Under the pieces are notes generated by a model. The model had not been told where the DNA came from. It saw nothing but the letters and a program-made list of their open reading frames with translations, and did not search any database. A stretch of DNA of 64,000 nucleotides from Frigidibacter albus (GTDB taxonomy: Bacteria; Pseudomonadota; Alphaproteobacteria; Rhodobacterales; Rhodobacteraceae): positions 1-64,000 of the forward strand of contig NZ_JAAAUC010000003.1 of the NCBI RefSeq assembly GCF_009908165.1. The letters run 5' to 3'. This document shows positions 1 to 17,136 of the stretch, in pieces (position 1 is the first letter of the stretch; the number at the start of each line of letters is the position of its first letter). Both the position numbers and the translations under genes were made by a program.

Positions 1-368
<368 letters not shown>

Positions 369-373
369 GCGGG

Positions 374-1216
374 ATGGAAACCCTCTCTGAAACCGGCGCT
401 TTCGGCGGCGTCCAGGGCGTCTATCGCCACGCCTCGGACGCCTGCGGCTGCGACATGACCTTTGCGGTCTACCTGCCGCCCGCCGCCAGGGCCGGCCCGG
501 TGCCGGTGCTGTGGTATCTCTCGGGCCTGACCTGCACCCATGAGAATGCGATGACCAAGGCCGGCGCGCAGGGATGGGCGGCAGAGGCGGGCATCGCGCT
601 GATCTTCCCCGACACCTCGCCGCGCGGCGAGGGCGTGGCAAATGACGAGGCCTATGATCTGGGGCAGGGCGCAGGCTTCTACGTCAACGCGACCGAGGCC
701 CCCTGGGCCCCGCATTTCCGCATGTGGGACTATGTGGTCACCGAACTGCCCGAGCTTGTCTTCGACCGCTTCCCGCTCGACCGGGCGCGTCAGGGCATCA
801 CCGGGCATTCGATGGGCGGGCACGGCGCGCTGACCATCGCCATGACCCATCCCCAAACCTATCGTTCGGTTTCCGCCATCTCGCCCATTGCGCACCCTGC
901 CGCCTCGGACTGGGGCCGCAAGCAGTTCACCGCCTATCTTGGGCCGGACGAGTCCACCTGGGCGCCCCATGACGCGACCCTGCTGATGCGGGATCGAGGC
1001 TACCCGGGGCCGGTGCTGATCGACCAGGGCGCGGCGGACCAGTTCCTGCACCTGCTGACCCCTCAGGCGCTGATCGAGGCCGCCGCCGACCGCGGCCAGC
1101 CCTGCGAATTCCGGATGCTGGCGGGCTATGACCACAGCTATTTCTATGTGTCGAGCGTGATGGAACACCATGTCCGCTGGCATTCGGCGCAGCTGGCGCT
1201 TGTCGCCGTGGCCTGA
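374..1216 (+). CDS. fghA: S-formylglutathione hydrolase
   Basis: 280-aa serine esterase of the esterase D family, normal length. It hydrolyses S-formylglutathione to formate and glutathione, the last step of glutathione-dependent formaldehyde oxidation. The nucleophile is Ser146 in GHSMGGHG. The other triad members are probably Asp222 in DQGAADQFL and His254 in GYDHSYFYV. WYLSGLTCTHENAM near residue 47 is the family's conserved oxyanion region. The ATG at 374 lies 5 bases after the dehydrogenase stop, so the two are almost certainly co-transcribed. The frame stays open upstream to base 83, but there it only shadows the dehydrogenase gene. Confidence 0.95.
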   Translation: METLSETGAFGGVQGVYRHASDACGCDMTFAVYLPPAARAGPVPVLWYLSGLTCTHENAMTKAGAQGWAAEAGIALIFPDTSPRGEGVANDEAYDLGQGAGFYVNATEAPWAPHFRMWDYVVTELPELVFDRFPLDRARQGITGHSMGGHGALTIAMTHPQTYRSVSAISPIAHPAASDWGRKQFTAYLGPDESTWAPHDATLLMRDRGYPGPVLIDQGAADQFLHLLTPQALIEAAADRGQPCEFRMLAGYDHSYFYVSSVMEHHVRWHSAQLALVAVA

Positions 1217-1357: not shown

Positions 1358-1477
1358 AAGAGCACAATAAGAAGCCCGCCCGCACCCTTGCCAGACCGGC
1401 AATCCAGCGGCCCGGCCAGCCCGACAGCCTGCAGCCACTGGCTGCGCGCCCGATTTCAGTCTTCAGGGAGGAAGCAC

Positions 1478-3283
1478 ATGAAAAGGTTTACCATCAGTGT
1501 TGTCGCCACATTGCTGCTTGGCACGGCCGCCCCGGTCTTTGCCAATGACAGCGTGCTTGCGGCGACCGGCGATTCAAAGCAATGGGCGGCGCAGCTTGGC
1601 GACTATGCCGGCACCCGCTATTCGGAACTCGACCAGATCACCAACGAGAATGTCGGCGACCTGCAGGTTGCCTGGACCTTCTCGACCGGCGTTCTGCGCG
1701 GCCATGAAGGTGCGCCGCTGGTGATCGGCGATGTCATGTATGTGCACACGCCGTTCCCGAACAACGTCTACGCGCTGGACCTGAACAACGACGGCAAGAT
1801 CCTGTGGCGCTATACCCCGCAGCAAGATGCCGACGTGATCGGCGTGATGTGCTGCGATACCGTCTATCGCGGGCTGGCCTATTCCGACGACACCATCTTC
1901 CTGCATCAGGCCGATACCACGCTGGTGGCGCTCGATGCCACGACCGGCGATGTGAAGTGGAGCGTCGTGAACGGCGATCCGGCCAAGGGTGAGACCAACA
2001 CCGCCACCGTGCTTCCGGTCAACGACAAAGTCCTGGTCGGCATCTCGGGCGGCGAATACGGCGTGCGCGGCCACCTGACCGCCTACAACATCGCCGACGG
2101 CTCGATGGCCTGGCGCGCCTATTCCACCGGCCCGGACGAAGACATGCTGGTCGATCCCGAGAACACCATGGTGCTGGGCAAGCCCGTCGGCGCGAACTCC
2201 TCGCTCGACAGCTGGGAGGGCGACCAGTGGCAGATCGGCGGCGGCACCACCTGGGGCTGGACCACCTATGACCCGGACCTGAACCTGATCTATTACGGCA
2301 CCGGCAACCCCTCGACCTGGAACCCCGCGCAGCGCCCGGGCGACAACAAGTGGTCGATGACGATCATGGCGCGGGATGCCGATACCGGCGTCGCCAAGTG
2401 GATGTACCAGAAGACCCCGCATGACGAGTGGGACTTCGACGGCGTGAACGAGAACATCCTCGTCGATCAGGAAATCGACGGCACCATGCGCAAGCTGCTG
2501 GTAAACTTCGACCGGAACGGCTTTGCCTATACCCTCGACCGCGAAACCGGCGAACTGCTGGTGGCCGAGAAGTATGACCCCGCCGTGAACTGGGCCACCC
2601 ATGTCGAGATGGACCCGGCGTCGGACCAGTATGGCCGCCCGCAGGTCGTGGCCGAATACTCGACCGCGCAGAACGGCGAGGACGTGAACACCACCGGCAT
2701 CTGCCCTGCGGCCCTTGGCACCAAGGACCAGCAGCCCTCGACCTACTCGCCGAAAACCGGCCTGTTCTACGTGCCGACCAACCATGTCTGCATGGATTAC
2801 GAGCCCTTCCGCGTCAGCTATTCGGCCGGCCAGCCCTATGTCGGCGCGACGCTGTCGATGTTCCCGGCGCCGGGCAGCCATGGCGGCATGGGCAACTTCA
2901 TCGCCTGGGACGCCGTCGCGGGCGAGATCAAGTGGTCGCTGCCGGAACAGTTCTCGGTCTGGTCGGGCGCGATGGCGACCGCGGGGGACGTGGTGTTCTA
3001 CGGCACGCTCGAAGGCTACCTGAAGGCGGTTGATGCCGAGACCGGCGAGGAGCTTTACAAGTTCAAGACGCCGTCGGGGATCATCGGCTACGTGATGACC
3101 TACGAACATGGCGGCAAGCAGTATATCGGCGTGCTGTCGGGCGTCGGCGGTTGGGCGGGCATCGGCCTTGCGGCGGGCCTGACCAACGCCAATGACGGGC
3201 TTGGCGCGGTCGGTGGCTATGCGGCGCTGTCGGATTACACCGCGCTTGGCGGCCAGCTGACGGTGTTCGCAATCCCGGACTGA
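1478..3283 (+). CDS. xoxF: Lanthanide-dependent methanol dehydrogenase XoxF
   Basis: 601-aa periplasmic PQQ quinoprotein with an N-terminal signal peptide (cleavage near VFA-ND). It is an eight-bladed propeller that oxidises methanol to formaldehyde and passes electrons to XoxG. By alignment to the family, the metal ligands are Glu193 (GGEYG), Asn277 (GTGNPSTWN) and catalytic Asp319. Asp321, two residues after the catalytic Asp (HDEWDFDG), is the extra carboxylate that separates lanthanide XoxF from calcium MxaF, which has Ala there. The vicinal Cys125-Cys126 pair (VMCCDT) is the family's PQQ-stacking disulfide. The ATG at 1478 has a strong AGGGAGGAA ribosome site; the frame extends to 1388 but lacks a signal there. 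A terminator follows directly. I see no mxaI small subunit. Confidence 0.96.
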
Positions 3284-4015: not shown

Positions 4016-4851
4016 TGGGCCGGGTGCGGGCCACCTTGGGGACCACCGCGCTGGCCTTTGCGCTGGCGGTTGCGGCTGCGCCGGGCTCGGCGCAGGTTGC
4101 GGATCTGGTGGACCGCACCGCCTTTCGCGTCTGCGCCGATCCGGGCAACGCGCCGCTATCGCATCAGGATGGCTCGGGCTTCGAGAACAGGCTGGCGGCG
4201 ATGTTCGGGGAAAAGCTGGGGGTGCCGGTCAGCTATGTCTGGTTCCCGCAGGTCACCGGCTTTGTCCGCAAGACCCTGCAGGCCGGGCGCTGCGATGTGG
4301 TGATCGGCTTCGCGCAGGGCGACGAGCTGGTGCTGAACACCAACCATTATTACGTTTCGACCCATGTGCTGATCGCGCGGGCGGACAGTGACCTTGCCGA
4401 TGTCGACACGCTGACCGATGCGCGGCTGCTGGACAAGCGCATCGGCGTGGTGGCCGGCACGCCGCCGGCGACGCATCTGGCGCGCAACGGGCTGATCGGA
4501 AAGGCCAAGGGCTATGACCTGGTGGTGGACCGGCGGGTGGAGAACCCGGCGGGCGACATGCTGGCGGACCTGGAGGCGGGCGAGATCGACCTCGCGATCC
4601 TCTGGGGGCCGATCGGTGGGCCGCTGGTCAAGGGCAATGATGCGCTGGTGGTGACGCCGCTGCTGAAGGAAGAAGCCACGCCGCGGCTGTTCTACCGCAT
4701 CACGATGGGCGTGCGCGCGGGCGAGGATGAGTGGAAGCGCGAGTTGAATTCGCTGATCCGCCGCAACCAGGCCGAGATCGACGCGATCCTGATCGAGGCG
4801 GGGGTGCCGCTGGTCGATGATTACGGGACCAAGCTGAAGCCCGCAGGTTAG
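4012..4851 (+). CDS. xoxJ: XoxJ, periplasmic binding-protein-like partner of methanol dehydrogenase
   Basis: 279-aa secreted protein of the SBP_bac_3 (bacterial extracellular solute-binding family 3) fold, the MxaJ/XoxJ group. The signal peptide ends near GSAQ. The mature protein begins FRVCADPGNAPLSHQDGSGF, the conserved opening of this family, and the GRCDVVIGF segment near residue 95 is also typical. XoxJ is thought to help activate or mature XoxF rather than transport a solute. The ATG at 4012 overlaps the xoxG stop (ATGATG; 4015 is an alternative start), indicating translational coupling. Its stop overlaps the stop of the opposing propeller gene by 4 bases, so there is no intergenic terminator. 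Confidence 0.9.
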   Translation: MMGRVRATLGTTALAFALAVAAAPGSAQVADLVDRTAFRVCADPGNAPLSHQDGSGFENRLAAMFGEKLGVPVSYVWFPQVTGFVRKTLQAGRCDVVIGFAQGDELVLNTNHYYVSTHVLIARADSDLADVDTLTDARLLDKRIGVVAGTPPATHLARNGLIGKAKGYDLVVDRRVENPAGDMLADLEAGEIDLAILWGPIGGPLVKGNDALVVTPLLKEEATPRLFYRITMGVRAGEDEWKRELNSLIRRNQAEIDAILIEAGVPLVDDYGTKLKPAG

Positions 4852-5798
4852 GGCGGGGTCAGCTCACGGCGCGGTGCCGATGAAGGCGCCAAAGCCGCGG
4901 GGCCTTCGGGCAGCGCAACCTCGCCTTGCAGGGCGAGGCTTTGCGCATCGAGGATGCTGAGCGTGTCGGAGAACCAGTTCGCCACGAGAATGCGGCCCCC
5001 GTCAGCGGTGGTGGCGATGCCTTCGGGGTATTCGCCGACCGTGACCGTCGCCAGCACTTCGAGGCTGCCTGCATCGAACACGCTGACACTTTCGCCATAC
5101 TGGTTGGTGACGAAGCCCTTGCCGGCCGCGAAGGCGATGGCATAGGGCCGCTCGCCCACCGGGATCGTGGCGATCAGGCTGCGGCTGTCCAGATCGACGA
5201 CCGACACGGTATTGCCCATCACATCGGCGGTGAAGGCGCGCCCTGCATGGAGGGTGACGCCAAATGGATGCGCACCCACGGCCACCTGCGCCAGCGTGGC
5301 GCCGGTGGCCGTGTCGATCAGGCCGAGGCTGTCCGCGTCCCGCTCTGCCGTGACCAGCAGCGCGCCATCGTCGCTGACCGCGATGCCCGAAGGCGCGGGG
5401 CCGGTAGCGAAGCGGCGCAGGACTTCGCCCGCGGCGGGGTCGATCTCCAGCAGTTGCGCGGCCTGCCAGTCCGAGACATAGACCAGTCCCGAGACCGGGT
5501 TCACCGCCACCCCGAAGGGCGCGCCGGGCAGGTCCATCACCCGCAGGGTCTGCGCGCTGAGCAGGTCCAGCACATGCAGCCGCCCGGGTTCCACCGCGAC
5601 GACATAGGCGCGCACCCGGGGCCCGTCCACCGCGACCGCCGCGGGCTTGCCGGGCAGGGGCACCGTGGCGCGAATGCTGCCGGTGCCCGCGTCAAGGAAG
5701 CTGACCGCCCCGGCGTTTTGCGACGGGATCACCGCCACCTCTTGCGCCGCTGCGGCGGTTACAGACAAAGCCAGCAGCAGCGCGCAAAGGGGTCTCAC
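4848..5798 (-). CDS. Secreted YVTN-type beta-propeller protein
   Basis: 316-aa exported protein with a signal peptide (cut near AAAAQ) and about seven repeats of the YVTN/lactonase-like blade, for example VYVSDW, LLVTAERDADS, FVTNQYGESVSVFD and ILVANWFSDTLSILD. Similar propellers accompany PQQ alcohol dehydrogenase clusters, but the biochemical role is unknown. It is the second gene of a two-gene minus-strand unit, overlapping the SRPBCC gene by 4 bases. Its stop collides with that of xoxJ. A second, distinct propeller is at 7734. It could be a scaffold or a cofactor chaperone; I have no evidence for enzymatic activity. Confidence 0.75.
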   Translation of the reverse strand: MRPLCALLLALSVTAAAAQEVAVIPSQNAGAVSFLDAGTGSIRATVPLPGKPAAVAVDGPRVRAYVVAVEPGRLHVLDLLSAQTLRVMDLPGAPFGVAVNPVSGLVYVSDWQAAQLLEIDPAAGEVLRRFATGPAPSGIAVSDDGALLVTAERDADSLGLIDTATGATLAQVAVGAHPFGVTLHAGRAFTADVMGNTVSVVDLDSRSLIATIPVGERPYAIAFAAGKGFVTNQYGESVSVFDAGSLEVLATVTVGEYPEGIATTADGGRILVANWFSDTLSILDAQSLALQGEVALPEGPAALAPSSAPRRELTPP

Positions 5799-6343
5799 TC
5801 CGCCGCGCCGAACTGCTCCACCAAGGCGACGAAGCCCGCCTGATAGACCGCATCCACCGCCGCAATCGCCGCCTCGTCATTCAACTCGGGCGGCGGATCG
5901 TTGTTGGGGAAGCCGCGATAGAAGGCGCCGCGCCATTCGACCAGCGCCTTGCCGCCAGCATCCTTCACCGTCAGATGCGAGGAATAGTTGGTGACCGGCA
6001 GCGCCGCCACATTGTCCACCGTCATCCGGTAGGAATAGCTGCGCTTGGCGGCGTCGAACTTGGTCAGCTCCTCGCTGAGCGTCTCGCCGCCCTGCAGGGT
6101 CAGCACCCGGACGGCGCCGATCTCGGCGCCTTCGGGGGCCTCGGTCGCGGTGACGGCGGGGTGCCAGCTCATGTCGGCAAAGTCGCCGATCACCGCCCAG
6201 ACCTCTTCGGGGCTGGCGTTGAGGGTGATTTCCTGCGTGGTCTTCTGCCGCGAGGGGCCATGAGCCTCGGCCGGCGGCGCGGCCAGCGCGAGGCTGGCGA
6301 AAAGGGCTGCTCCGGCAACCAGGGCCCGGACGGTGTTGCGCAT
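5795..6343 (-). CDS. Secreted SRPBCC-fold protein (MxaD-like)
   Basis: 182-aa protein with a signal peptide (cut near AEA-HGP) followed by a START/SRPBCC lipid-binding-like domain. The domain starts QEITLNASPEEVWAVIGDF and has the WHPAV segment typical of the polyketide-cyclase/MxaD group. MxaD is known to improve electron transfer between methanol dehydrogenase and its cytochrome; an equivalent role with XoxF/XoxG is inferred here. It is first in the unit, with AGGAGA before ATG 6343. The shared xox-locus motif lies about 77 bases upstream on the same strand. Confidence 0.8.
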   Translation of the reverse strand: MRNTVRALVAGAALFASLALAAPPAEAHGPSRQKTTQEITLNASPEEVWAVIGDFADMSWHPAVTATEAPEGAEIGAVRVLTLQGGETLSEELTKFDAAKRSYSYRMTVDNVAALPVTNYSSHLTVKDAGGKALVEWRGAFYRGFPNNDPPPELNDEAAIAAVDAVYQAGFVALVEQFGAAE

Positions 6344-6419
6344 TCTGTCTCCTCCGATTCAAGGGCGCCTTGCGGCTGCCCCGACGGGCCAACGATACGG
6401 CGCGGCGCCCCCCCGGCAA

Positions 6420-6436
6420 TCAAACCAAAGTATGAG
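6420..6436 (-). promoter_or_regulatory. xox-locus shared motif, copy 2
   Basis: On the minus strand this reads CTCATACTTTGGTTTGA, 16 of 17 bases identical to the copy before xoxF. It sits between the divergent SRPBCC (6343, minus) and PQQ-ABC binding-protein (6531, plus) genes and could serve either. Confidence 0.6.
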
Positions 6437-6459
6437 TGCCTTTGATATCAGGGACTTAT

Positions 6460-6479
6460 TTTCTTCTTATCAGAAGAAA
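6460..6479. promoter_or_regulatory. 8-bp inverted repeat in the divergent promoter region
   Basis: TTTCTTCT-TATC-AGAAGAAA is a perfect AT-rich palindrome with a 4-base gap, about 50 bases before the ATG at 6531. It lacks a T-run and is not a terminator. It may be an operator or part of an activator site. No matching copy was noticed elsewhere. Confidence 0.4.
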
Positions 6480-6530
6480 GCGTTTTGCCGGGCGGCGCCG
6501 TCATGCCCCAATGCCGGCAGGGAGGACGTG

Positions 6531-7733
6531 ATGGGAAAGACTGGCTTGAGACTGGCCGGCGCGCTGCTGGCTTGCGCCGCGCTGAGTGCCCCGGCACAGG
6601 CGCAGACCGAATACCGCGCCGCGGTTTTGCGGGTGGATACGCCCGGCCCGCTGCCGATCTCGCGGCTGGATCTGCCGCCGGAGGACCTGGGCTTTGCAGG
6701 CGGGGCGCTTGGCACCGCCGACAACGCCACCACCGGCAGCTTCATGAAGCAGACCTTCGTGACCGAGGACGTTCTGGCGACACCCGAAACCGCCGAAGCC
6801 GAGATGCAGCGGCTGCTGGACGGCGGCACGCGGTTCATCGTGGTGCTGGCGGATGAGGCGATGACGGTGCGGCTGGCCGATCTGGCCGGGGACCGCGCGC
6901 TGCTGTTCAACGCGGGCGCCAGCGGCGACGTGCTGCGCAATGCCGACTGCCGGGCCAACCTGCTGCACACCGCGCCCTCGGACGCGATGCTGGCCGATGC
7001 GCTGGCCCAGTTCCTGATCTGGAAGCGGTGGGACGAATGGTTCCTGATCGAGGGCATCCACCCCGAGGATACCGCGCTGGCGGGCGCCTACCGGCGCGCC
7101 GCGACGAAGTTCGGCGCCAAGATCGTGGAAGAGCGGGTGTTCGAGGATACCGGCGGCGCCCGGCGCACCGACAGTGGCCATGTGCAGGTGCAGGCGCAGA
7201 TGCCGGTCTTCACGCAGCGCGCGGCCGAGCATGACGTGGTGGTCGCCGCCGACCATGCCGGCGTGTTCGCCGCCTGGCTGCCGTTCCACACCTGGGAGCC
7301 GCGGCCGGTGGCGGGATCAGGCGGGCTGATGCCGGTCAGCTGGCATCCGGCGCATGAGGCCTGGGGCGCGATGCAATGGCAGACGCGGTTCGAGAAGCAG
7401 AACAACCGCCCCGCCCGGCCCGAGGACTTTCAGGTCTGGATGGCGCTGCGCAGCCTCGGCGAGGCGGCAACGCGCACCACATCGGACGATTTCGACACGC
7501 TGGTGGGGTTCATCACCGGCGACAGCTTCGATCTGGCGGCCTTCAAAGGCCAGAAGCTGACCTATCGCGACTGGGACGGCCAGCTGCGCCAGCCGGTGCT
7601 GCTGAGCATGGGGCCGGTGACCGTCTCCGTCTCACCGCAGGACGGGTTCCTGCATCAGGTGTCGCAGCTTGACACTCTGGGCACCGACCGGGCCGAAACC
7701 GGTTGCACACGCATGACAGCAAGGGAGGACTAG
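6531..7733 (+). CDS. Periplasmic binding protein of the PQQ-alcohol-oxidation ABC system
   Basis: 400-aa exported protein (signal cut near AQAQTE) with the branched-chain-amino-acid receptor (Peripla_BP) fold. The order binding protein, beta-propeller, ATPase, permease next to a quinoprotein matches the conserved 'PQQ-dependent alcohol dehydrogenase system' ABC family. The ligand is unknown. Landmarks are FIVVLADEAMTVRLADLAGD near residue 104 and the HPAHEAWGAMQWQTRFEK region. The ATG at 6531 follows GGGAGGACGTG; upstream in-frame codons lack a signal peptide. The propeller gene begins at the base after its stop. Confidence 0.8.
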   Translation: MGKTGLRLAGALLACAALSAPAQAQTEYRAAVLRVDTPGPLPISRLDLPPEDLGFAGGALGTADNATTGSFMKQTFVTEDVLATPETAEAEMQRLLDGGTRFIVVLADEAMTVRLADLAGDRALLFNAGASGDVLRNADCRANLLHTAPSDAMLADALAQFLIWKRWDEWFLIEGIHPEDTALAGAYRRAATKFGAKIVEERVFEDTGGARRTDSGHVQVQAQMPVFTQRAAEHDVVVAADHAGVFAAWLPFHTWEPRPVAGSGGLMPVSWHPAHEAWGAMQWQTRFEKQNNRPARPEDFQVWMALRSLGEAATRTTSDDFDTLVGFITGDSFDLAAFKGQKLTYRDWDGQLRQPVLLSMGPVTVSVSPQDGFLHQVSQLDTLGTDRAETGCTRMTARED

Positions 7734-8702
7734 GTGACAAGATTTACCGCAGCTTTGGCCTGCGCGGCGCTGACCGCATCCCCGGCGCTTGCCGACAAGA
7801 TCTTTGTCAGCAACGAAAAGGGCAACACCATCACCGTGCTGGATGGCACCAGCTTCGAGGTGATCCACACCTTCAACGGCGGCCAGCGGCCGCGGGGCAT
7901 CACCGCCTCGCCCGATGGCAAGATCCTGTATGTCTGCGCGTCGGATGACGATCTGGTGCGGGTGTTCGATACCGAAACCTATGAGGAGCTGCCCTCGCTG
8001 CCCTCTGGTCCCGACCCGGAACTGTTCGTGCTGCACCCGTCGGGCAACCCGCTTTATATCGCCAACGAGGATGACAACATCGTCACCGTGGTCGATGTGG
8101 AAACCCGGCAGGTGCTGGCCGAGGTGCCGGTGGGGGTGGAGCCCGAGGGGATGGGCGTTCATCCCGATGGGTCCATCGTGGTCAACACGTCAGAGACCAC
8201 CAACATGGCGCATATGATCGACACCACCACCTATGAGATCGTGGCGAATGTGCTGGTCGACAGCCGCCCGCGCTTTGCCCAATACGACAGCGATGGCAGC
8301 CACCTGTTCGTGACCGCCGAGATCGGCGGCACGGTGTCGGTGATCGACGCCGCCAGCTACGAGGTGACCCACAAGATCACCTTCGAGGTGCCGGGCGTAG
8401 TGCCCGAGGCGCTGCAGCCGGTGGGCCTGCGCATCACGGCGGACGACTCGAAAATCTTCGTCGCCCTCGGGCCGGCGAACCGGGTGGCCGTGGTCAATGG
8501 CGAGACCTACGAGGTCGAGGACTACCTGCTGGTCGGCCAGCGGGTCTGGCAACTCGCCTTCTCGCCCGATGGCAAATACCTCTACACCACCAACGGCAAT
8601 TCCAACGACATCTCGATCATCGACGTGGCCAGCAACGAGGTTCTGAAATCGGTGCAGGTCGGCCAGCAGCCCTGGGGTGTGGTGGCGACGAAATCAAACT
8701 GA
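7734..8702 (+). CDS. PQQ-dependent catabolism-associated beta-propeller protein
   Basis: 322-aa secreted protein with a signal peptide (cut near ALA-DKI) and YVTN-family propeller repeats: FVSNEKGNTITVLDG, YIANEDDNIVTVVDV, LFVTAEIGGTVSVID and YTTNGNSNDISIIDV. This family is found only beside PQQ-dependent alcohol oxidation genes, and its molecular role is unknown. Translation starts at GTG 7734, immediately after the TAG of the binding-protein gene, so it is coupled to it. It is a different paralogue from the propeller at 4848. Confidence 0.82.
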   Translation: MTRFTAALACAALTASPALADKIFVSNEKGNTITVLDGTSFEVIHTFNGGQRPRGITASPDGKILYVCASDDDLVRVFDTETYEELPSLPSGPDPELFVLHPSGNPLYIANEDDNIVTVVDVETRQVLAEVPVGVEPEGMGVHPDGSIVVNTSETTNMAHMIDTTTYEIVANVLVDSRPRFAQYDSDGSHLFVTAEIGGTVSVIDAASYEVTHKITFEVPGVVPEALQPVGLRITADDSKIFVALGPANRVAVVNGETYEVEDYLLVGQRVWQLAFSPDGKYLYTTNGNSNDISIIDVASNEVLKSVQVGQQPWGVVATKSN

Positions 8703-8724
8703 GGTCAATCTGGGAGGAGACCTG

Positions 8725-9156
8725 ATGAAACGCATACTTGCCGCCGCTATCCTGGCCGTGGGGGCCGCCATGCCGGCGCTGGCCCATGACTATGGCTTTG
8801 CGGGCCTCTTGTCGAAGGACAACCGCGAGACGCTGGAGCCGCTGACGCTGGGGTCCGGCAAGCCGGTCGCGGCCGCGCCCTATGAGCTGAAATCGGGCAC
8901 CTACTACAAGATGAAGATCGTGGCCGATGGCTCGGCCGAACTGGCGCTGTCGGGGGGGGATTTCTTCCGGGCGATCTGGATCAACGAGATCGTCATCAAC
9001 CAGATCGAGGTGCGTCCGCTGGGCGTGCACTCGCTGGAATTCGATGCCGCGGGCGAGGCGGAGCTGTCCTTCATCGCCATCATCCCCGGCAGCTTTGAGC
9101 TGAAAATCCCCGGCTCGTCCGGGGATACCCAGAAAGCCGTCTTCAACATCCGCTGA
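8725..9156 (+). CDS. Small secreted protein of unknown function in the PQQ-ABC cassette
   Basis: 143 aa with a signal peptide (cut near ALA-HDY). The mature part is predicted all-beta (YELKSGTYYKMKIVADG, AELSFIAIIPGSFELKIPG), suggestive of a cupredoxin-like fold. It has no cysteine and no type 1 copper ligand set, so I do not call it a copper protein. It has a good GGGAGGAG ribosome site 6 bases before ATG 8725 and lies between the propeller and a small PepSY-like gene, so it probably belongs to the same transcript. A run of eight G occurs at 8952-8959. Function not recognised. Confidence 0.65.
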   Translation: MKRILAAAILAVGAAMPALAHDYGFAGLLSKDNRETLEPLTLGSGKPVAAAPYELKSGTYYKMKIVADGSAELALSGGDFFRAIWINEIVINQIEVRPLGVHSLEFDAAGEAELSFIAIIPGSFELKIPGSSGDTQKAVFNIR

Positions 9157-9170
9157 GAGGAGCGACCCTG

Positions 9171-9413
9171 ATGAAACACCTTCTTGCTGCGGCAGCCCTG
9201 GTGCTGCTTGCCGCCCCGGCCTTTGCCGAGGCCACCCCCGAACAGATCGCCGCCATCGATGCCAAGCTGGCCGAGATGCAATGCGAGGTCGATCCCGACA
9301 ACATCGAAATGGAGGATGGCGGCTTCGAGCTCGATGACGCGATCTGCATCGATGGCCAGTATGATATCGTGATGGATGCCGATCTGAACGTCACGGAGCA
9401 GCGCAAGGAATGA
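9171..9413 (+). CDS. Small acidic secreted PepSY-like protein
   Basis: 80 aa with a signal peptide (cut near AFA-EAT), leaving about 61 residues with roughly 20 Asp/Glu and only three Lys/Arg. The C-terminal half (GGFELDDAICIDGQYDIVMDADLNVTEQ) fits a single PepSY-like unit. There are two cysteines, possibly a disulfide. The stretches DPDNIEMED and DADLN resemble metal-binding loops but do not match a full EF-hand. AGAGGAG precedes ATG 9171. The stop overlaps the ATPase gene by 4 bases, which supports a role in the transport or assembly cassette. Confidence 0.6.
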   Translation: MKHLLAAAALVLLAAPAFAEATPEQIAAIDAKLAEMQCEVDPDNIEMEDGGFELDDAICIDGQYDIVMDADLNVTEQRKE

Positions 9414-10180
9414 CCGGAAGCCCGGGCGCGCCCCTCACTTCGGGCGCGCCAGACCTTGCGCCGGCGCTGGTGGTGGCGGATGTCAGCCACAGCTTTGGCG
9501 AGGTGCAGGCGCTGAAGGGCGTGTCCTTCACGGTTGCCCGCGGCGCCTTCACCGCCTTGCTGGGGGTGAACGGCGCTGGCAAGACTACGCTTTTCTCGCT
9601 GATCACCCGGCTCTATGACAGCACCAGCGGCACAATCGCGGTGGCGGGGTTCGATGCCCGCCGCGCGCCGGGCGAGGCGCTGGCGCGGCTGGGGGTGGTG
9701 TTCCAGACCCGCGCGCTGGATACCGACCTGACCCTGCGCCAGAACCTGCGCTATCACGCCGCGCTGCACGGCATTGCCCGCAGGCCCGCCGAGGCGCGGA
9801 TCGCCGAGGTGTTGGCGCTGGTCGATCTGGCGGACCGCATCGACCAGCGCACCGCCGCGCTGTCGGGCGGGCAGCAGCGGCGGGCCGAGATTGCCCGCGC
9901 GCTGCTGCACCGGCCCGAACTGCTGTTGCTGGACGAGGCGACGGCGGGGCTTGACGTCAGGGCGCGGGCAGAGGTGCTGGCGCTGGTGCGGCGGCTGATC
10001 CGGCACGAGAATGTCTCGGCCCTGTTCGCCACGCATGTGATGGATGAGATCGAGCCCGCCGACAATGTGGTGCTGCTGCACCGGGGCGAGGTGCTGGCGC
10101 GCGGCCGCGCGGACAGCATCGCGGCGGCGGGGGGCGATCTGACCTCGGCCTTCCTGTCGTTGACGGGGCAGGCGGCATGA
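9410..10180 (+). CDS. ABC transporter ATP-binding protein, PQQ-alcohol-oxidation system
   Basis: 256-aa ABC ATPase of the ABC-2/DrrA class. The Walker A is GVNGAGKTT, the signature LSGGQQRR, the Walker B LLLLDEAT, and the switch histidine lies in FATHV. The first ~25 residues (GSPGAPLTSGAP) are a low-complexity lead, so translation might begin later, but ATG 9410 overlaps the preceding stop (ATGA) and looks coupled. Together with the permease at 10177 it forms a transporter whose subunit type is usually an exporter, although the operon also encodes a periplasmic binding protein. Confidence 0.88.
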   Translation: MTGSPGAPLTSGAPDLAPALVVADVSHSFGEVQALKGVSFTVARGAFTALLGVNGAGKTTLFSLITRLYDSTSGTIAVAGFDARRAPGEALARLGVVFQTRALDTDLTLRQNLRYHAALHGIARRPAEARIAEVLALVDLADRIDQRTAALSGGQQRRAEIARALLHRPELLLLDEATAGLDVRARAEVLALVRRLIRHENVSALFATHVMDEIEPADNVVLLHRGEVLARGRADSIAAAGGDLTSAFLSLTGQAA

Positions 10181-10974
10181 GAACAGGTTGGACCATCGCC
10201 TTCTCCGGCATCGCGCGCCGCGAGGTGCTGCGCTTTGCCCGCCAGCGCGAACGGTTTCTGGCGGCGCTGGTGCGCCCGCTGGTCTGGCTGTTCATATTTG
10301 CCGCGGGGTTCCGCTCGGTCCTCGGCCTGTCGATCACCGCGCCCTATGAGACCTACGTGCTCTACGAGGTCTATGTGGTGCCCGGCCTCTGCGCGATGAT
10401 CCAGCTGTTCAACGGGATGCAGTCCTCGCTGTCGATGGTCTATGACCGCGAGACCGGGGCGATGCGCACGCTGCTGGTCAGCCCCTATCCGCGCTGGTTC
10501 CTGCTGGGGGCCAAGCTGGTGGCGGGGGTGCTGGTGTCGATCCTGCAGGTCTATGCCTTTCTGGGCATCGCCTGGCTGTGGGGGGTGAAGCCGCCGGCGA
10601 TCGGCTGGGCGGCGGTGCTGCCGGCGCTGCTGCTGGCGGGGGTGATGCTGGGCTCCCTGGGGCTGCTGATTTCGTCGACCATCCGCCAGCTGGAGAATTT
10701 CGCGGGGGTGATGAACTTCGTGATCTTCCCGATGTTCTTCGCCTCCAGCGCGCTTTACCCGCTGTGGCGGATGAAGGAATCGAGCGTGCTGCTGCATGAC
10801 ATCAGTGCGCTGAACCCCTTCACCTCTGCGGTGGAGCTGATCCGGTTCGCGCTCTACGGGCAGGTCAATGTCACCGCCTTGGCGGTCGTGGCTGGCTGCA
10901 CGGTGGTGTTCTTCGGCGGCACCGTTTTCATGTATGATCCGGCCAAGGGCCTGTGGCGCAAGCGCACAGGGTAG
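10177..10974 (+). CDS. ABC-2 type permease, PQQ-alcohol-oxidation system (PedC-like)
   Basis: 265-aa integral membrane protein with about six hydrophobic segments. It has the ABC-2 permease hallmark region around MVYDRETGAMRTLLVSPYP (residues 88-106) and ends in a MYDPAKGLWRKRTG tail. Families like this are consistently adjacent to PQQ alcohol dehydrogenases (the ped/exa type of locus); the substrate is unknown. It overlaps the ATPase gene by 4 bases and is followed 6 bases later by the next gene, so it belongs to the same operon. Confidence 0.85.
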   Translation: MRTGWTIAFSGIARREVLRFARQRERFLAALVRPLVWLFIFAAGFRSVLGLSITAPYETYVLYEVYVVPGLCAMIQLFNGMQSSLSMVYDRETGAMRTLLVSPYPRWFLLGAKLVAGVLVSILQVYAFLGIAWLWGVKPPAIGWAAVLPALLLAGVMLGSLGLLISSTIRQLENFAGVMNFVIFPMFFASSALYPLWRMKESSVLLHDISALNPFTSAVELIRFALYGQVNVTALAVVAGCTVVFFGGTVFMYDPAKGLWRKRTG

Positions 10975-10980
10975 GGAGGT

Positions 10981-11583
10981 ATGTCGATGAAACGTGCGAT
11001 CTTGATGGCGGCGGCGCTGATGCTGGGCGGGGCGGCGCAGGCCGCGGGGCCGGTCGATCCCGACTGGCCCTGCATCCAGCGGCGGGTGCCGCATCTGTCA
11101 TTGGGGCAGGTCTGGGCCGGGCCGTTGCCGGACCCGGCCATCGAGGAGCTGGCGGACACGGCGCCGGTGCAAGGGGTTGCCCGCGCGCTGGCGCTGCGCC
11201 GCACGCCGATGCCGGAGGCCGAGGCGCTGATCGCGGGCTATGCCGAAACCGCCGATGCCGCCGCGCTGACTGCCCTCTTCGTGGCGACGCTGGAGCATAT
11301 CGACGCCAGCCGCGACCGGGTGCTGGTGGGCATCACCCGCTATGCCCACAAGCAGGCCGATCTGGACCAGCACATCGAGGAGGCGCGCCGGGAGTTTGCG
11401 GCGCTGACCGAGGCCGAATCGCAGGATTTCGACCGGCTGGATGCGCTGGAGGCCGATATCGACTGGTCCACCCGCATCTTCCTCGACCGGCAGCAATCGC
11501 TGATCTATGTGTGCGAAACCCCGGTGATTCTGGAGCAGCGGGCCTTTGCACTGGGGCGCGCGGTGATGGCCCATCTGCCGTAG
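10981..11583 (+). CDS. Secreted protein of unknown function, end of the PQQ-ABC cassette
   Basis: 200 aa with a signal peptide (cut near AQAAGP). The mature part begins with a DPDWPCIQRRVPHLS segment and is largely helical, with a long charged helix around residues 115-150 (HKQADLDQHIEEARREF). It has two cysteines, Cys24 in the WPC motif and Cys179 (YVCETP), that could pair. It lies 6 bases after the permease with GGGAGG upstream, so it is the last gene of that operon. I do not recognise a characterised family. Confidence 0.65.
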   Translation: MSMKRAILMAAALMLGGAAQAAGPVDPDWPCIQRRVPHLSLGQVWAGPLPDPAIEELADTAPVQGVARALALRRTPMPEAEALIAGYAETADAAALTALFVATLEHIDASRDRVLVGITRYAHKQADLDQHIEEARREFAALTEAESQDFDRLDALEADIDWSTRIFLDRQQSLIYVCETPVILEQRAFALGRAVMAHLP

Positions 11584-11714: not shown

Positions 11715-12419
11715 ATGGAGCTACGCCCGATCCGGGATGTCGCCAGCGACGTCTCGCGTGGAGCCAACGGTCATGCGGTGCAGGATGTCCTGATCGTCGA
11801 TGACCACCCGCTGATCTGCCATGCGCTGTCGGTGACGCTTGGCCATGCCTTCGGGCTGCGCAAGGTGCGCACCGCCACCAGCATCGCCACCGCAATGGCC
11901 AATATCGCTGCCGAGGGGGCGCCCGATGCGGTGGTGCTGGACCTCAACCTGCCGGATGTGGCGGGGGTGGAAGGCGTGATCGTGCTGCGCCAGCATATCG
12001 GCGACGCACCGCTGACCGTGATCTCGGCCGAGCTGGACCCGGGCCGGGTGACGGCGGTGCTGGCCGCCGGGGCGCGCGGCTATGTGACGAAGAGCCTTGC
12101 CCGCAGCAAGATGGTCGAGGCGTTCGAACGGATGTGGGCCGGCGAGGTGGTGACGCCCGAGGGCTATGAGCAGGCCGGGCGCAGCGATGCGGACGAGCTG
12201 GCGGCACTGGCGCGGGATTTCGCCACGCTGACGCCGCAGCAGATGAACATCCTGCGGCTGATCTGCCAGGGTCGGCCCAACAAGCTGATCTCGTACGAGC
12301 TGTCGATCGCCGAGGCAACGGTCAAGACCCACATCGCCGCGATCATGACCAAGATCAATGTGCGCAACCGCACCCAGGCCGCGCTGCTGGCCAGCAGGGC
12401 GCGGATCTTCATGCGCTGA
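11715..12419 (+). CDS. LuxR/NarL-type response regulator (AgmR/FlhR-like)
   Basis: 234-aa two-domain regulator. The receiver domain (residues ~23-140) has the acidic pocket VDDHP, phospho-acceptor Asp76 in VVLDLNLP and conserved Lys in VTKSLARSK. The C-terminal LuxR helix-turn-helix has LTPQQMNILRLICQG and IAEATVKTHIAAIMTKINVRNRTQA in order. Close relatives control PQQ-dependent alcohol oxidation in pseudomonads (AgmR/ErbR) and formaldehyde and methanol genes in Paracoccus (FlhR); assignment to one of these is inference. ATG 11715 has GGGGAGGAC 5 bases upstream. The soluble hybrid kinase at 13602 is the likely phosphodonor. It may bind the shared motif at 1294, 6420 and 24084. Confidence 0.85.
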   Translation: MELRPIRDVASDVSRGANGHAVQDVLIVDDHPLICHALSVTLGHAFGLRKVRTATSIATAMANIAAEGAPDAVVLDLNLPDVAGVEGVIVLRQHIGDAPLTVISAELDPGRVTAVLAAGARGYVTKSLARSKMVEAFERMWAGEVVTPEGYEQAGRSDADELAALARDFATLTPQQMNILRLICQGRPNKLISYELSIAEATVKTHIAAIMTKINVRNRTQAALLASRARIFMR

Positions 12420-12448
12420 CCGCAGATCGAAACCGGGGGAGACAGGCC

Positions 12449-13618
12449 ATGCCGGACATGTCCGCAGGGGCGGCGCTTCCCAAACCGGAACGGCCGCGCG
12501 CCGTGACCGCCCTGGGCAATGCCGCCGAAATCGAGGCGCAGATCGTGGCGGCCTTCGGGGGCGCAGCCCCGGGGCTGGTGCTGGTCTTCGCCTCGGACGG
12601 GTCGCTGATCGCGCCGCTGACCGGGGCGCTGGCGGCGCGCTTTGGCACGGCCTGCCGGGTGGTCGGCTGCTCCTCGGCCGGCGAGTTCGCCTTTGCCGGC
12701 TATGACAATCGCGGCGCCGTCGCCATCGCCTTTCCTGCCGCGCATTTCGAGGGCGAGGCGGTCTGGCTGCGGCGGCTGCGCGACCATGCGGCGCTGGACT
12801 GGATGGCGACGCTGCGCGCCGCCAGCGCCCGGGTCCCGGACCGGCCCGGCCGGGTGCGCTTTGGCATCCTGCTCATCGACGGGCTGAGCAAGCGCGAGGA
12901 GCTGGTGACGGCGACGGTCGAGGCGACGCTGCCCGGCGTGCTGGTGCTGGGGGGATCGGCCGGGGACGGGCTGCGCTTTGGCCGCACCCACCTTGCCATC
13001 GACGGCGAGAGCTGCCCGCAAAGCGCGGTCCTGTGCCTGATGTCCACCGATTACCGGATCGAGGAGGTGGTGTTCGACCATTTCACCCCGGCCGGCCAGC
13101 GGATGGTGGTGACAGAGGCGCTGCCCGAGGAGCGGCTGATCCTTGAGATCAACGCCGAACCCGCGGCCGAGGAATATGCAAGGAGGATCGGCCTGCCGGT
13201 GGCCGATCTCGGCCCCCGCGCCTTTGCCGAGAACCCGCTGCTGGTGCGGATCGGCCGGCGGCATTTCGTGCGCGCGATCCTCGAGGTGACCGAGGGCGGC
13301 GGGCTGCGGATGATGTCGGCGGTGGATGAGGGGGTGATGATGACCCTTGGCCGCGCCGAAGACCTCACGGGCGGCTTCGAGGCGCGGCTGGCGCAGCTGG
13401 CTGGCCCCGCCGCGCTGATCCTGGGGTTCGACTGCATCTTGCGGCGCATCGCGCTGGAACAGGCGGGGTTACAGGAGACGGTGGGCCGCATCTTCCACGA
13501 CTACAACATCGCCGGGTTCAACACCTATGGCGAGCAGCATGGCGGCATCCACGTGAACCAGACCTTCGTGGGGCTGGCGTTCTTGCAAGGTGAGGACGAC
13601 GATGCTGCGCAGCTCTGA
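12449..13618 (+). CDS. FIST-domain sensor protein (NosP-like)
   Basis: 389-aa soluble protein made of a FIST N domain (VGCSSAGEFAFAGY near residue 71) and a FIST C domain (IHVNQTFVGLAFL at the end). The family includes NosP, a haem protein that senses nitric oxide and controls the kinase encoded beside it. Here the stop lies 17 bases inside the following hybrid-kinase gene, the same pairing. Haem binding is not provable from sequence. A GGGGGAGA ribosome site precedes ATG 12449. By context it could signal NO, or another small molecule, to methanol oxidation genes. Confidence 0.82.
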   Translation: MPDMSAGAALPKPERPRAVTALGNAAEIEAQIVAAFGGAAPGLVLVFASDGSLIAPLTGALAARFGTACRVVGCSSAGEFAFAGYDNRGAVAIAFPAAHFEGEAVWLRRLRDHAALDWMATLRAASARVPDRPGRVRFGILLIDGLSKREELVTATVEATLPGVLVLGGSAGDGLRFGRTHLAIDGESCPQSAVLCLMSTDYRIEEVVFDHFTPAGQRMVVTEALPEERLILEINAEPAAEEYARRIGLPVADLGPRAFAENPLLVRIGRRHFVRAILEVTEGGGLRMMSAVDEGVMMTLGRAEDLTGGFEARLAQLAGPAALILGFDCILRRIALEQAGLQETVGRIFHDYNIAGFNTYGEQHGGIHVNQTFVGLAFLQGEDDDAAQL

Positions 13619-14951
13619 CACCGCCGAGCGGCAGATCCAGAAGCTGCAGCGCATCAATGCCGCGCTGATCCGGCGGATGGACATCATCGACGAGGCGCGC
13701 GGGTCCACCCATGCCCTGTCGCAGGCGGCGGCGGTGCTGGAACGCGAGGTGGTGGCGCGGAACCTCGATCTGGAACGGGCGCTGGCCGATCTGGGCGCGA
13801 TCAATGCCGAGCTTGCCTCGGCCCGGGTGGCCGCGGATGAGGCGAACCGCGCCAAGTCGCGCTTTCTGCGCGCGGCCAGCCATGACCTGCTGCAACCGCT
13901 GAGCGCCGCCAAGCTGCTGCTGTCGCATCTGGAGGATGTGACGACCGATCCCGGGCAGGCCGATCTGGTCGGCCGTATCGCCGCCACCTTCGAATCCGCC
14001 GAAGACCTGATCCGCGCGCTGCTGCAGATCGCCCGGCTGGATTCGCAGCGGGTGGAGATGAATGTGGGGCCGGTGTCGCTGGGACGGCTGTTCCAGCGGC
14101 TGTCCATCGACGTGCAGGCGCAGGCCGAGGCGCGGGGGCTGGACCTGCGCTTCGTGCCCTCGTCTGCCGCGGTGCTCAGCGATCCGGTGCATCTGCGCTC
14201 CATCGCGCAAAACCTGATCTCCAACGCCCTGAAATACACGCTGTCCGGCCGGGTTCTGGTCGGGGTGCGGCGGGCGCCGGGCGCGGTGTGGCTGCAGGTG
14301 CATGACACCGGGCCGGGCATCGCCGCCAAGGATCAGGAGCGGATCTTCAACGAATTCGAACGCCTCTCGCACTCCGACCAGCCGGGGACCGGCCTTGGCC
14401 TGACCATCGTGCGCCGCGCTTGCCAGCAGCTTGGCCACAAGCTCGAGGTGCTCAGCGCCCCGGGGCGCGGCTCGCTGTTCCGGGTGCTGCTGCCCTTGGC
14501 CGATGCTGCGTCGCTGGCGCCCAAGGACAAGGTGGCCGATGCGCGCGAGGCACCGGGGCCGGACGCGGCCTTTCACGGGCGCACGGTGTTGGTGGTGGAG
14601 AATGACCCGGCAATGCGGCAGGCGTTTTCCTTCCTGCTGGGGGGCTGGGGCATGACGGTGCTGGCCACCGACGGGATGGAGGGCGTGGGCAGGCTGTTGC
14701 AAGGGCCGCGCCCGCGTCCCGAGATCGTGCTGACCGATTACCGGCTGGATCAGGGCGAGACGGGCGTGCAGGTGATCAGCCAGGTTCATGCCGCGCTTGG
14801 CCGCGCGGTGCCGGCGCTGATCGTCAGCGCGGAATGCGCCGAGACGATTGGGGCCGCGTCTTCTCATCTCGGCGCCGGGGTTCTGGAAAAGCCTGTGGCC
14901 GAGGCGGAGCTGCGGCAGATGATGCGCGCCCTGCTGGGGGCCGCGCCATGA
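13602..14951 (+). CDS. Soluble hybrid histidine kinase (HisKA-HATPase-REC), NahK/ErcS'-like
   Basis: 449 aa with no membrane segment. Domain order: N-terminal coiled coil (10-85), HisKA with His94 in ASHDLLQPLSAAK, HATPase (N-box QNLISNALKY, G1 DTGPGI, G2 GTGLGLTI), then a receiver domain with Asp379 in LTDYRLD and Lys in VLEKPV. ATG 13602 is chosen over GTG 13590 because AGGTGAGG sits at proper spacing before it. The gene overlaps the FIST gene by 17 bases, arguing that the FIST protein is its sensory input. The lack of a separate output domain suggests phosphotransfer to the LuxR-type regulator at 11715. Confidence 0.88.
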   Translation: MLRSSDTAERQIQKLQRINAALIRRMDIIDEARGSTHALSQAAAVLEREVVARNLDLERALADLGAINAELASARVAADEANRAKSRFLRAASHDLLQPLSAAKLLLSHLEDVTTDPGQADLVGRIAATFESAEDLIRALLQIARLDSQRVEMNVGPVSLGRLFQRLSIDVQAQAEARGLDLRFVPSSAAVLSDPVHLRSIAQNLISNALKYTLSGRVLVGVRRAPGAVWLQVHDTGPGIAAKDQERIFNEFERLSHSDQPGTGLGLTIVRRACQQLGHKLEVLSAPGRGSLFRVLLPLADAASLAPKDKVADAREAPGPDAAFHGRTVLVVENDPAMRQAFSFLLGGWGMTVLATDGMEGVGRLLQGPRPRPEIVLTDYRLDQGETGVQVISQVHAALGRAVPALIVSAECAETIGAASSHLGAGVLEKPVAEAELRQMMRALLGAAP

Positions 14952-16459
14952 GCCGCGGCGCCCCGAACCTGCGGCAGAAATTCGCGCTGGCGGCGCTGCT
15001 GCTGGCGGCACTGGCGGTGCTGGCCGCGGGCATCGCCGTCCATGGCCTGTCGCGCACCCAGCGGCACGCGGCCGAGGCGATGGCGGCGCAGCAGCGGATC
15101 GAGGGCTATGGCGCGCTGTCGGCGCGGGTGAACGAGTGGATGCTGGGCTGGCTGTCGCCGGTCGCGCAGCAGGGCGCTGCGCCAGACAGCTTTCCGGTGA
15201 CGGCGACCTTCGGGCTGATGGACCGGCTGGTGGCCGAGGATGTGGAGGTGGCGCCGAACGCGACCGAAACCGCCACCCGCGCCCGGCAGGGCATCACGCT
15301 GGCGCGGGTGCGCGGGCAATTCACCCGGCTGGAGCGGAGCCTGGCGCAATCGCCGCCCGGCACTCCCGCGGGCGAAGCGGCGCTGGCGGTCTACGGCGCG
15401 CAGGTGCCGGGGCTGATCGCGGCGCAGATCCATCAGGAGACGCGGCGGCGCGAGGCGGCGCTGGCGGCGATGGCCGACTTGCGCGGCCCGCTGCATGCGC
15501 TGGCGCTGGCGATTGCCATCGGCGCGCCGCTGTTGCTGATTGTCCTCTATCTGGTGCTGCTGCGCCCGGTATTCCGGCGGCTGGCAGCGGGCGGCGAGGG
15601 CGCGCCGGTGCATGACGAGCTTGGCCTGCTGTTCGCGCGGGTGCGGCAGATGACGGCGCGGCTGGACCGCCGGGCGCGCCGCCTTGCCGCGGACCGTGCC
15701 CGGCTGGAGGCGTTGGTGGCCGAGCGCACCGAAGATCTCAGCGCCGCCAATGCCCGCCTGTCGCGGGTGGATGCCGAGCGGCGCCGGTTCTTCGCCGATG
15801 TCGGGCATGAGCTGCGCACACCGCTGACGGTGATCCTTGGCGAGGCGGAACTGGGCGAGCGGCATGACGACCCCGCGCTGCGCGCCAGTTTCCGCACCAT
15901 CCACAGCCGCGCGCTGCGGCTGGCGCGGCGGATCGAGGATCTGTTGCGGATTGCCCGGTCCGACAGCGGTAGGCTGGATCTGGACTGTCAGCCCGTCGAT
16001 CTGGCGGCGGCGGCGCAGGCGGCCCTTGGCGACATGGCTGTGCTGCTGCGCCGCGCGGGGGTGGAGGCGGAGCTGGACTTTGACGGCGACCTGCAGGTGG
16101 CCGGCGATGCCGACTGGCTGCGGCAGGTGTTTTCCGGCCTGCTGGAGAATGCCGCGAAATATGCGGGGCGGGGGGCGACTGTCCGGATCAGGGGGCAGTC
16201 CCTCGGGGCATGGGCGCGCGCCGAGGTCACCGATACCGGGCCGGGCATCGCGCCCGCCCTGCTGGAACCGGCGCTGGCCCGCTTTGGGCGAGGGGATACG
16301 CGCGAGGCCGGCTTCGGCGTCGGCCTTGCGCTGGCGCGGTGGGTGGTCGAGGCTCAGGGCGGACGGCTGACGGCGATCAGCCCGGTGATCCAAGGCCGCG
16401 GGCTGACGATTCGTATCGATTTGCCGCGTGCGGCCGGGGCGGAAAGCGAGGTTGCGTGA
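14948..16459 (+). CDS. Membrane-bound sensor histidine kinase
   Basis: 503 aa. Transmembrane segments near residues 11-33 and 183-205 enclose a ~150-residue periplasmic, mostly helical sensor region. A linker coiled coil (235-280), HisKA with His287 in FADVGHELRTPLT, and HATPase (LLENAAKYAG, DTGPGIAP, GFGVGLALAR) follow. It is coupled to the upstream hybrid kinase (ATGA overlap) and to the OmpR regulator downstream (GTGA overlap). The signal is unknown; a periplasmic cue linked to methanol, metal or PQQ is an inference from location. Confidence 0.88.
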   Translation: MSRGAPNLRQKFALAALLLAALAVLAAGIAVHGLSRTQRHAAEAMAAQQRIEGYGALSARVNEWMLGWLSPVAQQGAAPDSFPVTATFGLMDRLVAEDVEVAPNATETATRARQGITLARVRGQFTRLERSLAQSPPGTPAGEAALAVYGAQVPGLIAAQIHQETRRREAALAAMADLRGPLHALALAIAIGAPLLLIVLYLVLLRPVFRRLAAGGEGAPVHDELGLLFARVRQMTARLDRRARRLAADRARLEALVAERTEDLSAANARLSRVDAERRRFFADVGHELRTPLTVILGEAELGERHDDPALRASFRTIHSRALRLARRIEDLLRIARSDSGRLDLDCQPVDLAAAAQAALGDMAVLLRRAGVEAELDFDGDLQVAGDADWLRQVFSGLLENAAKYAGRGATVRIRGQSLGAWARAEVTDTGPGIAPALLEPALARFGRGDTREAGFGVGLALARWVVEAQGGRLTAISPVIQGRGLTIRIDLPRAAGAESEVA

Positions 16460-17136
16460 AACAGGTGCTGATCGTCGAGGATGATCCCGACATCGCCTCG
16501 CTTTTGCAACGCGGGCTGGGGGCGGCGGGCTATGGCACGGTCTGGGAGGCGGCGGGCGAGCCGGCGCTGGCGCGGCTGCGGCATCAGGCTTTCGATGCCG
16601 CGATCATCGACATGATGCTGGGCGAGGAGAGCGGCGCCGAGCTGCTGGCCGAGATGCGTGCCCGCGGCCACCGGATGCCGGCCATCGTGCTCAGCGCCCT
16701 GTCGCGGGTCGAGGACCGGGCCGAGGGGCTGGATGCCGGCGCGCAGGATTATGTGGTCAAGCCCTTCCAGCTGGGAGAGCTGATCGCGCGGCTGGAGGTG
16801 CAGCTGGTGCGCGGCGCGGCCCCTGTGCCCGCTCTGGCGCTTGGCGGGCTGCGCTATGACCCGGCAGACCGCACCGTCAGCGGCGCCGGCCGCAAGGTGG
16901 TGCTGACCGAGCGCGAGGGCGAGCTGCTGGCGCATCTGATCGCCCGCCCCGGGCAGGTGCTGACCCGCGGCGAGATCTTCGATGCGCTGTGGGCGCCGCA
17001 TGGCGGATCGACCGAGAATGTCGTCGATGTCTATCTGGGATACCTGCGGCGCAAGCTGTCGGACCTGTCGCCCTATGGGCTGGCCCTGCGCACCCTGCGC
17101 GGGCGCGGCTTTGTCCTGACGCTGGAGGAAAGCTGA
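16456..17136 (+). CDS. OmpR-family response regulator
   Basis: 226 aa, GTG start overlapping the kinase stop by 4 bases. The receiver has the acidic pair EDDP, phospho-acceptor Asp52 in AIIDMMLG and Lys102 in VVKPFQ. The winged-helix output domain carries LTEREGELLAHLIARPGQVLTR and VVDVYLGYLRRKL. It is the cognate partner of the kinase at 14948. The next gene starts inside its stop codon (TGATG), so the regulator and two secreted proteins form one operon. Its targets are unknown. Confidence 0.9.
   Translation: MKQVLIVEDDPDIASLLQRGLGAAGYGTVWEAAGEPALARLRHQAFDAAIIDMMLGEESGAELLAEMRARGHRMPAIVLSALSRVEDRAEGLDAGAQDYVVKPFQLGELIARLEVQLVRGAAPVPALALGGLRYDPADRTVSGAGRKVVLTEREGELLAHLIARPGQVLTRGEIFDALWAPHGGSTENVVDVYLGYLRRKLSDLSPYGLALRTLRGRGFVLTLEES

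Follow-up and report, generated by a model that had tools for sequence, protein, structure and literature searches.

A FlhR-ORF2-FlhS-type triad with a NosP-like FIST protein in a methanol oxidation locus of Frigidibacter albus

The window analysed here is a stretch of 64,000 nucleotides from Frigidibacter albus (NCBI RefSeq assembly GCF_009908165.1, contig NZ_JAAAUC010000003.1, positions 1 to 64,000). It contains a triad of genes arranged in tandem on the + strand between 11715 and 14951. Their products are, in order, a response regulator of the LuxR type, a protein with FIST_N and FIST_C domains, and a soluble hybrid kinase. As judged from gene order and phylogeny the triad is the orthologue of flhR-orf2-flhS of Paracoccus denitrificans and is laid out like afdRTS and rfdRTS of Rhodobacter (Cereibacter) sphaeroides. 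The LuxR-FIST-kinase combination is therefore already known, as the FlhR-ORF2-FlhS, AfdRTS and RfdRTS arrangement. It is probable that the triad is a module of this type, controlling methanol and formaldehyde oxidation by means of a kinase whose activity is gated by the FIST protein. For two decades FlhRS and AfdRS have been recognised as formaldehyde and methanol regulators, and their signal sensing is still unexplained. The mode of formaldehyde sensing by AfdRS and RfdRS was called unknown and the middle gene was left without a clear role (PMC4776306). The middle gene encodes a NosP-type FIST protein, which joins two literatures that are kept apart in the searchable papers.

Orthology with FlhR-ORF2-FlhS and AfdRTS

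The published order of flhR-orf2-flhS and of afdRTS and rfdRTS is regulator, middle gene, kinase (PMC4776306). Methanol growth requires FlhRS, and adhI is activated by AfdRS with formaldehyde (PMC4776306). Gene order was compared across 80 related loci and the order LuxR-FIST-kinase was found again in nearly all of them. A phylogenetic tree was constructed from 131 FIST proteins, including 25 scoring above the curated cut-off of the NosP family (NF041558, 450 bits). One branch set apart these 25 proteins and another set apart the window protein and 80 relatives, mostly from Rhodobacterales, both with a support of 100. The only FIST gene of P. denitrificans is located inside a LuxR-FIST-kinase triad (locus L090), and its product fell within the window clade with a support of 100. 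The orthology with flhR-orf2-flhS was drawn from the gene order, the tree and this single P. denitrificans gene.

The two triads also share a hybrid kinase lacking a PAS domain (50% identical) and a LuxR regulator (62% identical). They differ in setting. No xoxF homologue was present within 10 kb of the P. denitrificans triad, whereas the window triad is contained in a locus with xoxF and genes for a pyrroloquinoline quinone (PQQ)-associated ATP-binding cassette (ABC) system, and has an additional two-component pair downstream. AfdR-AfdT-AfdS and RfdR-RfdT-RfdS have the same sequence of regulator, middle gene and kinase, within one operon, and function in formaldehyde gene control. R. sphaeroides has two such sets, either of which may be the orthologue of the window triad. 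One set is thought to be a repressor. Three Cereibacter-group genomes each encoded two FIST proteins, one of which was in the window clade.

The same PQQ/xox locus held the triad in many close relatives, among them members of Frigidibacter, Cereibacter, Xinfangfangia, Amaricoccus, Neomegalonema and Loktanella. In Sinorhizobium meliloti the triad was about 10 kb away from fghA-xoxF. In Paroceanicella profunda (L020:13151-19924) the FIST gene adjoined the formaldehyde gene gfa, with the kinase and regulator genes about 2 kb off on the other strand.

Relation to NosP-NahK and to PQQ alcohol oxidation

An earlier note on this DNA had described the FIST and kinase genes as the overlapping NosP-NahK pair, beside a LuxR-type regulator in a methanol oxidation locus. 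The NosP-like character of the FIST protein was borne out. NosP was its sole NCBIfam match (9.7e-89) and it had FIST_N and FIST_C with no further domains, as expected of NosP. The score was 298 bits, below the cut-off, and that of the P. denitrificans orthologue was 277.5 bits. The best NCBIfam match of the hybrid kinase was to the NahK/ErcS family (NF041831, NF041832), which aligned to the core from end to end (3.7e-97, 325.7 bits compared to a cut-off of 400). The SHDLLQPL motif of this family was also found. The presence of a LuxR-type regulator beside the pair was confirmed; its best scoring model was ErdR (NF041830) at 143.9 bits compared to a cut-off of 390, and all ErdR and NarL-type models fell below cut-off. 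By these family models the window pair is related to NosP-NahK but is not a member. The parts of the earlier description that stood were a NosP-like FIST protein overlapping a NahK/ErcS-family kinase, a LuxR regulator and the methanol locus. Strict identity with NosP-NahK did not stand, given the score below cut-off, the separate clade and the kinase without PAS.

No PAS domain was predicted by Pfam in the window or P. denitrificans kinase. PAS was present in the kinases of the S. meliloti homologue, of Roseivivax and of Pseudomonas-like NahK. Because the kinases examined in the window clade lack PAS, no sensor other than the FIST protein is recognisable in this clade. NosP-NahK of Pseudomonas aeruginosa (PA1975-PA1976/ErcS') resembles the window in that a PQQ alcohol oxidation region holds a FIST gene with adjacent genes for a NahK/ErcS hybrid kinase and a LuxR regulator. 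The window pair differs in its FIST clade, in its 298 bits compared to 450, in the PAS-less kinase and in an adjacent output regulator in place of the HptB/RsmA route. The P. aeruginosa nosP-nahK genes (nahK is also ercS') are themselves within the PQQ ethanol oxidation region (PMC12997753), and the link of this type of FIST-kinase pair to PQQ alcohol oxidation is therefore general.

There was good evidence that the FIST protein and the kinase act as one unit, as they are fused in a single chain elsewhere. The natural fusion, in another proteobacterium (L171:3500-7054, - strand), has 1185 residues in the order FIST_N-FIST_C-PAS-HisKA-HATPase_c-REC, and so unites a protein like NosP with one like NahK. 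A second candidate fusion (G577) was rejected as two abutting genes with a stop codon between them. In another species NosP binds and inhibits its own soluble kinase (NosP-NosK; PMC12570481).

Co-occurrence was examined in 151 genomes, each representing one genus of the family, with all NosP-type FIST proteins counted. In counts uncorrected for phylogeny a PQQ alcohol dehydrogenase was present in 40 of 57 genomes with a NosP-type FIST protein and in 5 of 94 without (odds ratio 42, p 1e-17). Thirty-four of 69 FIST genes were within 20 kb of a PQQ dehydrogenase gene. In the 151 genomes FIST was associated neither with the copper nitrite reductase gene nirK (odds ratio 0.67, p 0.62) nor with nitrite reductases taken together (p 0.16). 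A weak association was found with the cd1-type nirS (odds ratio 2.4, p 0.04). This pattern fits an alcohol oxidation regulator better than one dedicated to denitrification, and is compatible with an input from nitric oxide (NO).

Proposed function and signal of the FIST protein

In the proposed mechanism the soluble FIST protein would bind the hybrid kinase encoded next to it, at the PAS-less N-terminal part, and set the autophosphorylation of this kinase, by comparison with NosP-NosK (PMC12570481). The kinase would then pass phosphate to the LuxR-type regulator, either directly or via its own REC domain and an unlinked Hpt protein. Three Hpt matches were found in the genome, none of them on the window contig. 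The regulator would activate the xox, PQQ-ABC and glutathione-formaldehyde genes. The signal would most likely be formaldehyde or another product of alcohol oxidation.

A number of points weigh against this account. In most Paracoccus the triad is not beside xoxF. Locus L090 was equated with flhR-orf2-flhS through its layout and single copy and not through the published sequence. The expression of adhI with formaldehyde was unaltered in an rfdT mutant of R. sphaeroides, although redundancy with afdT may account for this. The co-occurrence counts take no account of phylogeny, and only about four of the NosP-type FIST proteins counted in the family belong to the window clade.

Three alternatives were considered for what the FIST protein senses. 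NO bound by haem and an aldehyde were given similar weight, and another ligand or a pure scaffold was given a somewhat higher weight than either. Of the first two, the comparative evidence favours aldehydes at least as much as NO.

The FIST protein may serve as a scaffold, or may sense something else, such as labile haem, an alcohol or the redox state, with formaldehyde acting elsewhere in the module. This was considered a serious possibility, somewhat short of an even chance. The silence of the rfdT mutant is in keeping with it. FIST proteins of Vibrio cholerae (CdpA) and Burkholderia thailandensis were reported as responsive to haem itself. In Pseudomonas such a kinase was proposed to have a different auxiliary partner, YiaY. 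Against this, no particular ligand has positive evidence here. The name GfdT was followed as a literature lead and yielded nothing useful beyond a review of the Pseudomonas ped system.

The FIST protein could alternatively be a true haem-based NO sensor with the function of NosP, tying methanol oxidation to NO or respiratory status. This was considered rather unlikely. It draws on the single NCBIfam match to NosP and on residue His211, which was present in 25 of 25 NosP proteins above cut-off and in 98% of the window clade. At this position ten generic FIST proteins had Gly and two multidomain FIST proteins had Asn. His211 is a reasonable candidate for a haem ligand. Endogenous NO is possible as the organism carries nirK on the same contig (G000:C33:354681-355655), and the weak tie to nirS points in the same direction. 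However, the protein scored below the NosP cut-off and belonged to its own clade, and neither nirK nor nitrite reductases as a whole were associated with NosP-type FIST genes in the family. His211 was replaced by Pro in two Loktanella FIST proteins (L037 and L039), at least one of which (L037) is encoded in a xoxF locus that is intact in other respects. The literature that could be searched named no haem ligand for NosP. A CP haem-regulatory motif at FIST Cys189 was rejected as the Cys was not conserved.

The third alternative is that the FIST protein senses aldehydes. Cys329, activated by Glu362, would react with formaldehyde to form a reversible hemithioacetal and so switch the kinase. The predicted structure of the FIST protein was a confident model (predicted local distance difference test 91, predicted template modelling score 0.89). 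Its best solved structural match was the FIST domain of FBXO22, a human ubiquitin ligase subunit (E 2e-8, template modelling (TM) score about 0.5). FBXO22 is a eukaryotic F-box protein very distant in sequence from the window protein. A search of the Protein Data Bank by sequence, using the FIST protein and two profiles, returned no useful solved homologue, and FBXO22 surfaced by fold comparison alone. No FIST match was found in a viral structure library at E 0.001. In FBXO22 Cys326 attacks aldehydes to give a hemithioacetal and function is lost in the E362A mutant (PMC13316043, PMC11208438). The two proteins have in common the motifs CxxR and GFxxxGE, which carry both residues: Cys326 in CVGR and Glu362 in GFFGNGE of FBXO22, and Cys329 in CILR and Glu362 in GFNTYGE of the window protein. 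The FBXO22 motifs were located with a fragment of 46 residues, all of which was matched by the Protein Data Bank copy. Cys329 was kept in 130 of 131 FIST proteins and Glu362 in 131 of 131. The published response of FlhRS and AfdRS to formaldehyde, by a route left unexplained, would also fit.

Aldehyde sensing was nonetheless judged improbable, to much the same degree as NO sensing. The Cys and Glu are near-invariant across the whole FIST family, generic FIST proteins included, and may be structural or serve another chemistry. The reactivity of FBXO22 was shown for larger aldehydes and not for formaldehyde. The equivalence of the residues is taken from motifs and from a fold match at a TM-score of about 0.5, and adhI was unaffected in the rfdT mutant. 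There are also other conserved cysteines in the window clade, namely Cys35 and Cys184 of the LuxR regulator and Cys274 of the kinase. The statement in a review that the regulator and kinase have no conserved cysteine was false for this clade.

In its widest form the aldehyde proposal covers the FIST proteins of FlhRS/AfdRS modules (ORF2, AfdT, RfdT and the window protein) and perhaps NosP, with an FBXO22-like Cys-Glu pair capturing formaldehyde and gating the kinase. This broader claim was held to be more doubtful still. If true, it would explain how FlhRS-type systems detect formaldehyde and why nosP-nahK is placed in an ethanol oxidation cluster. NO and haem via His211 and aldehyde via Cys329 and Glu362 are competing candidate signals that can be tested directly in Paracoccus and Rhodobacter, which are genetically tractable and not pathogenic. 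The two Loktanella proteins with Pro in place of His211 are natural test cases of the haem hypothesis.

Anatomy and setting of the locus

The features of the locus are listed in Table 1. The setting in a methanol oxidation locus, as the earlier note had it, was supported by fghA, a lanthanide-type xoxF, a gene for a methanol-related cytochrome, a gene for a MoxJ-like protein (xoxJ) and the PQQ-associated ABC genes, all upstream of the triad. Lanthanide-type XoxF is marked by an additional Asp, located two positions past the catalytic one, and this residue was present in the window protein.

Table 1. Coordinates of the triad, candidate residues and neighbouring genes in the window
Feature	Position	Strand	Basis
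FlhR/AfdR-type LuxR (NarL) family response regulator, REC and helix-turn-helix	11715..12419	+	Pfam Response_reg 2.8e-19, GerE 1.3e-19
FIST_N/FIST_C protein, 389 residues; P. denitrificans ORF2 orthologue (by gene order and tree), AfdT/RfdT-like, NosP-type below cut-off	12449..13618	+	Pfam FIST 2.4e-36, FIST_C 2.4e-21
FlhS/AfdS-type soluble hybrid kinase, 449 residues	13602..14951	+	Pfam HisKA, HATPase_c, C-terminal Response_reg (REC)
Candidate haem ligand, His211 codon of FIST gene	13079..13081	+	Common to NosP, absent from generic FIST proteins
FIST Cys329 codon, by motif equivalent to the aldehyde-reactive Cys326 of FBXO22	13433..13435	+	PMC13316043, PMC11208438
FIST Glu362 codon, by motif equivalent to Glu362 of FBXO22	13532..13534	+	PMC13316043
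Second, separate histidine kinase (HisKA/HATPase_c), start overlapping the hybrid kinase stop	14948..16459	+	Pfam; kept in close xoxF-linked loci
OmpR/PhoB-family response regulator, partner of second kinase; start codon not fixed	16399..17136	+	Pfam, list of open reading frames
fghA, S-formylglutathione hydrolase (formaldehyde pathway)	83..1216	+	
XoxF-type PQQ methanol dehydrogenase, likely target system	1388..3283	+	EWDFD lanthanide motif
PQQ-associated ABC binding protein, beta-propeller, ABC ATPase and PedC-type permease	6333..10974	+	NCBIfam

The N-terminus of the hybrid kinase comprises about 80 residues without a Pfam domain. With the ATG start of the kinase, its gene shares 17 bases with the FIST gene, and an alternative GTG start is located at 13590. 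Because of this overlap, and because the second two-component pair (14948-17136) begins on the hybrid kinase's stop codon, the triad and the OmpR-type pair probably form an operon of five genes reaching 17136. The second pair was retained in the closest xoxF-linked loci. It was rejected as part of the known FlhRS system, as no close relative of its kinase was found in the Paracoccus, C. changlensis and S. meliloti records searched, and was classed as a local addition.

The palindrome GACATGTC, located 68 bases upstream of the LuxR gene, was considered as an operator and rejected. There were five copies in the window, and in only two of the 14 loci compared, those of the window and its closest relative, did it precede the LuxR gene. 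The locus also encodes two PQQ-associated beta-propeller proteins, at 4848-5798 (- strand) and 7734-8702, only one of which was above the family cut-off. The gene at 10981-11583 encodes a protein of 200 residues with no Pfam or NCBIfam matches. It is retained beside the triad or xoxF, also in S. meliloti (43% identity) and in Neomegalonema, and is a candidate PQQ/methanol accessory protein.

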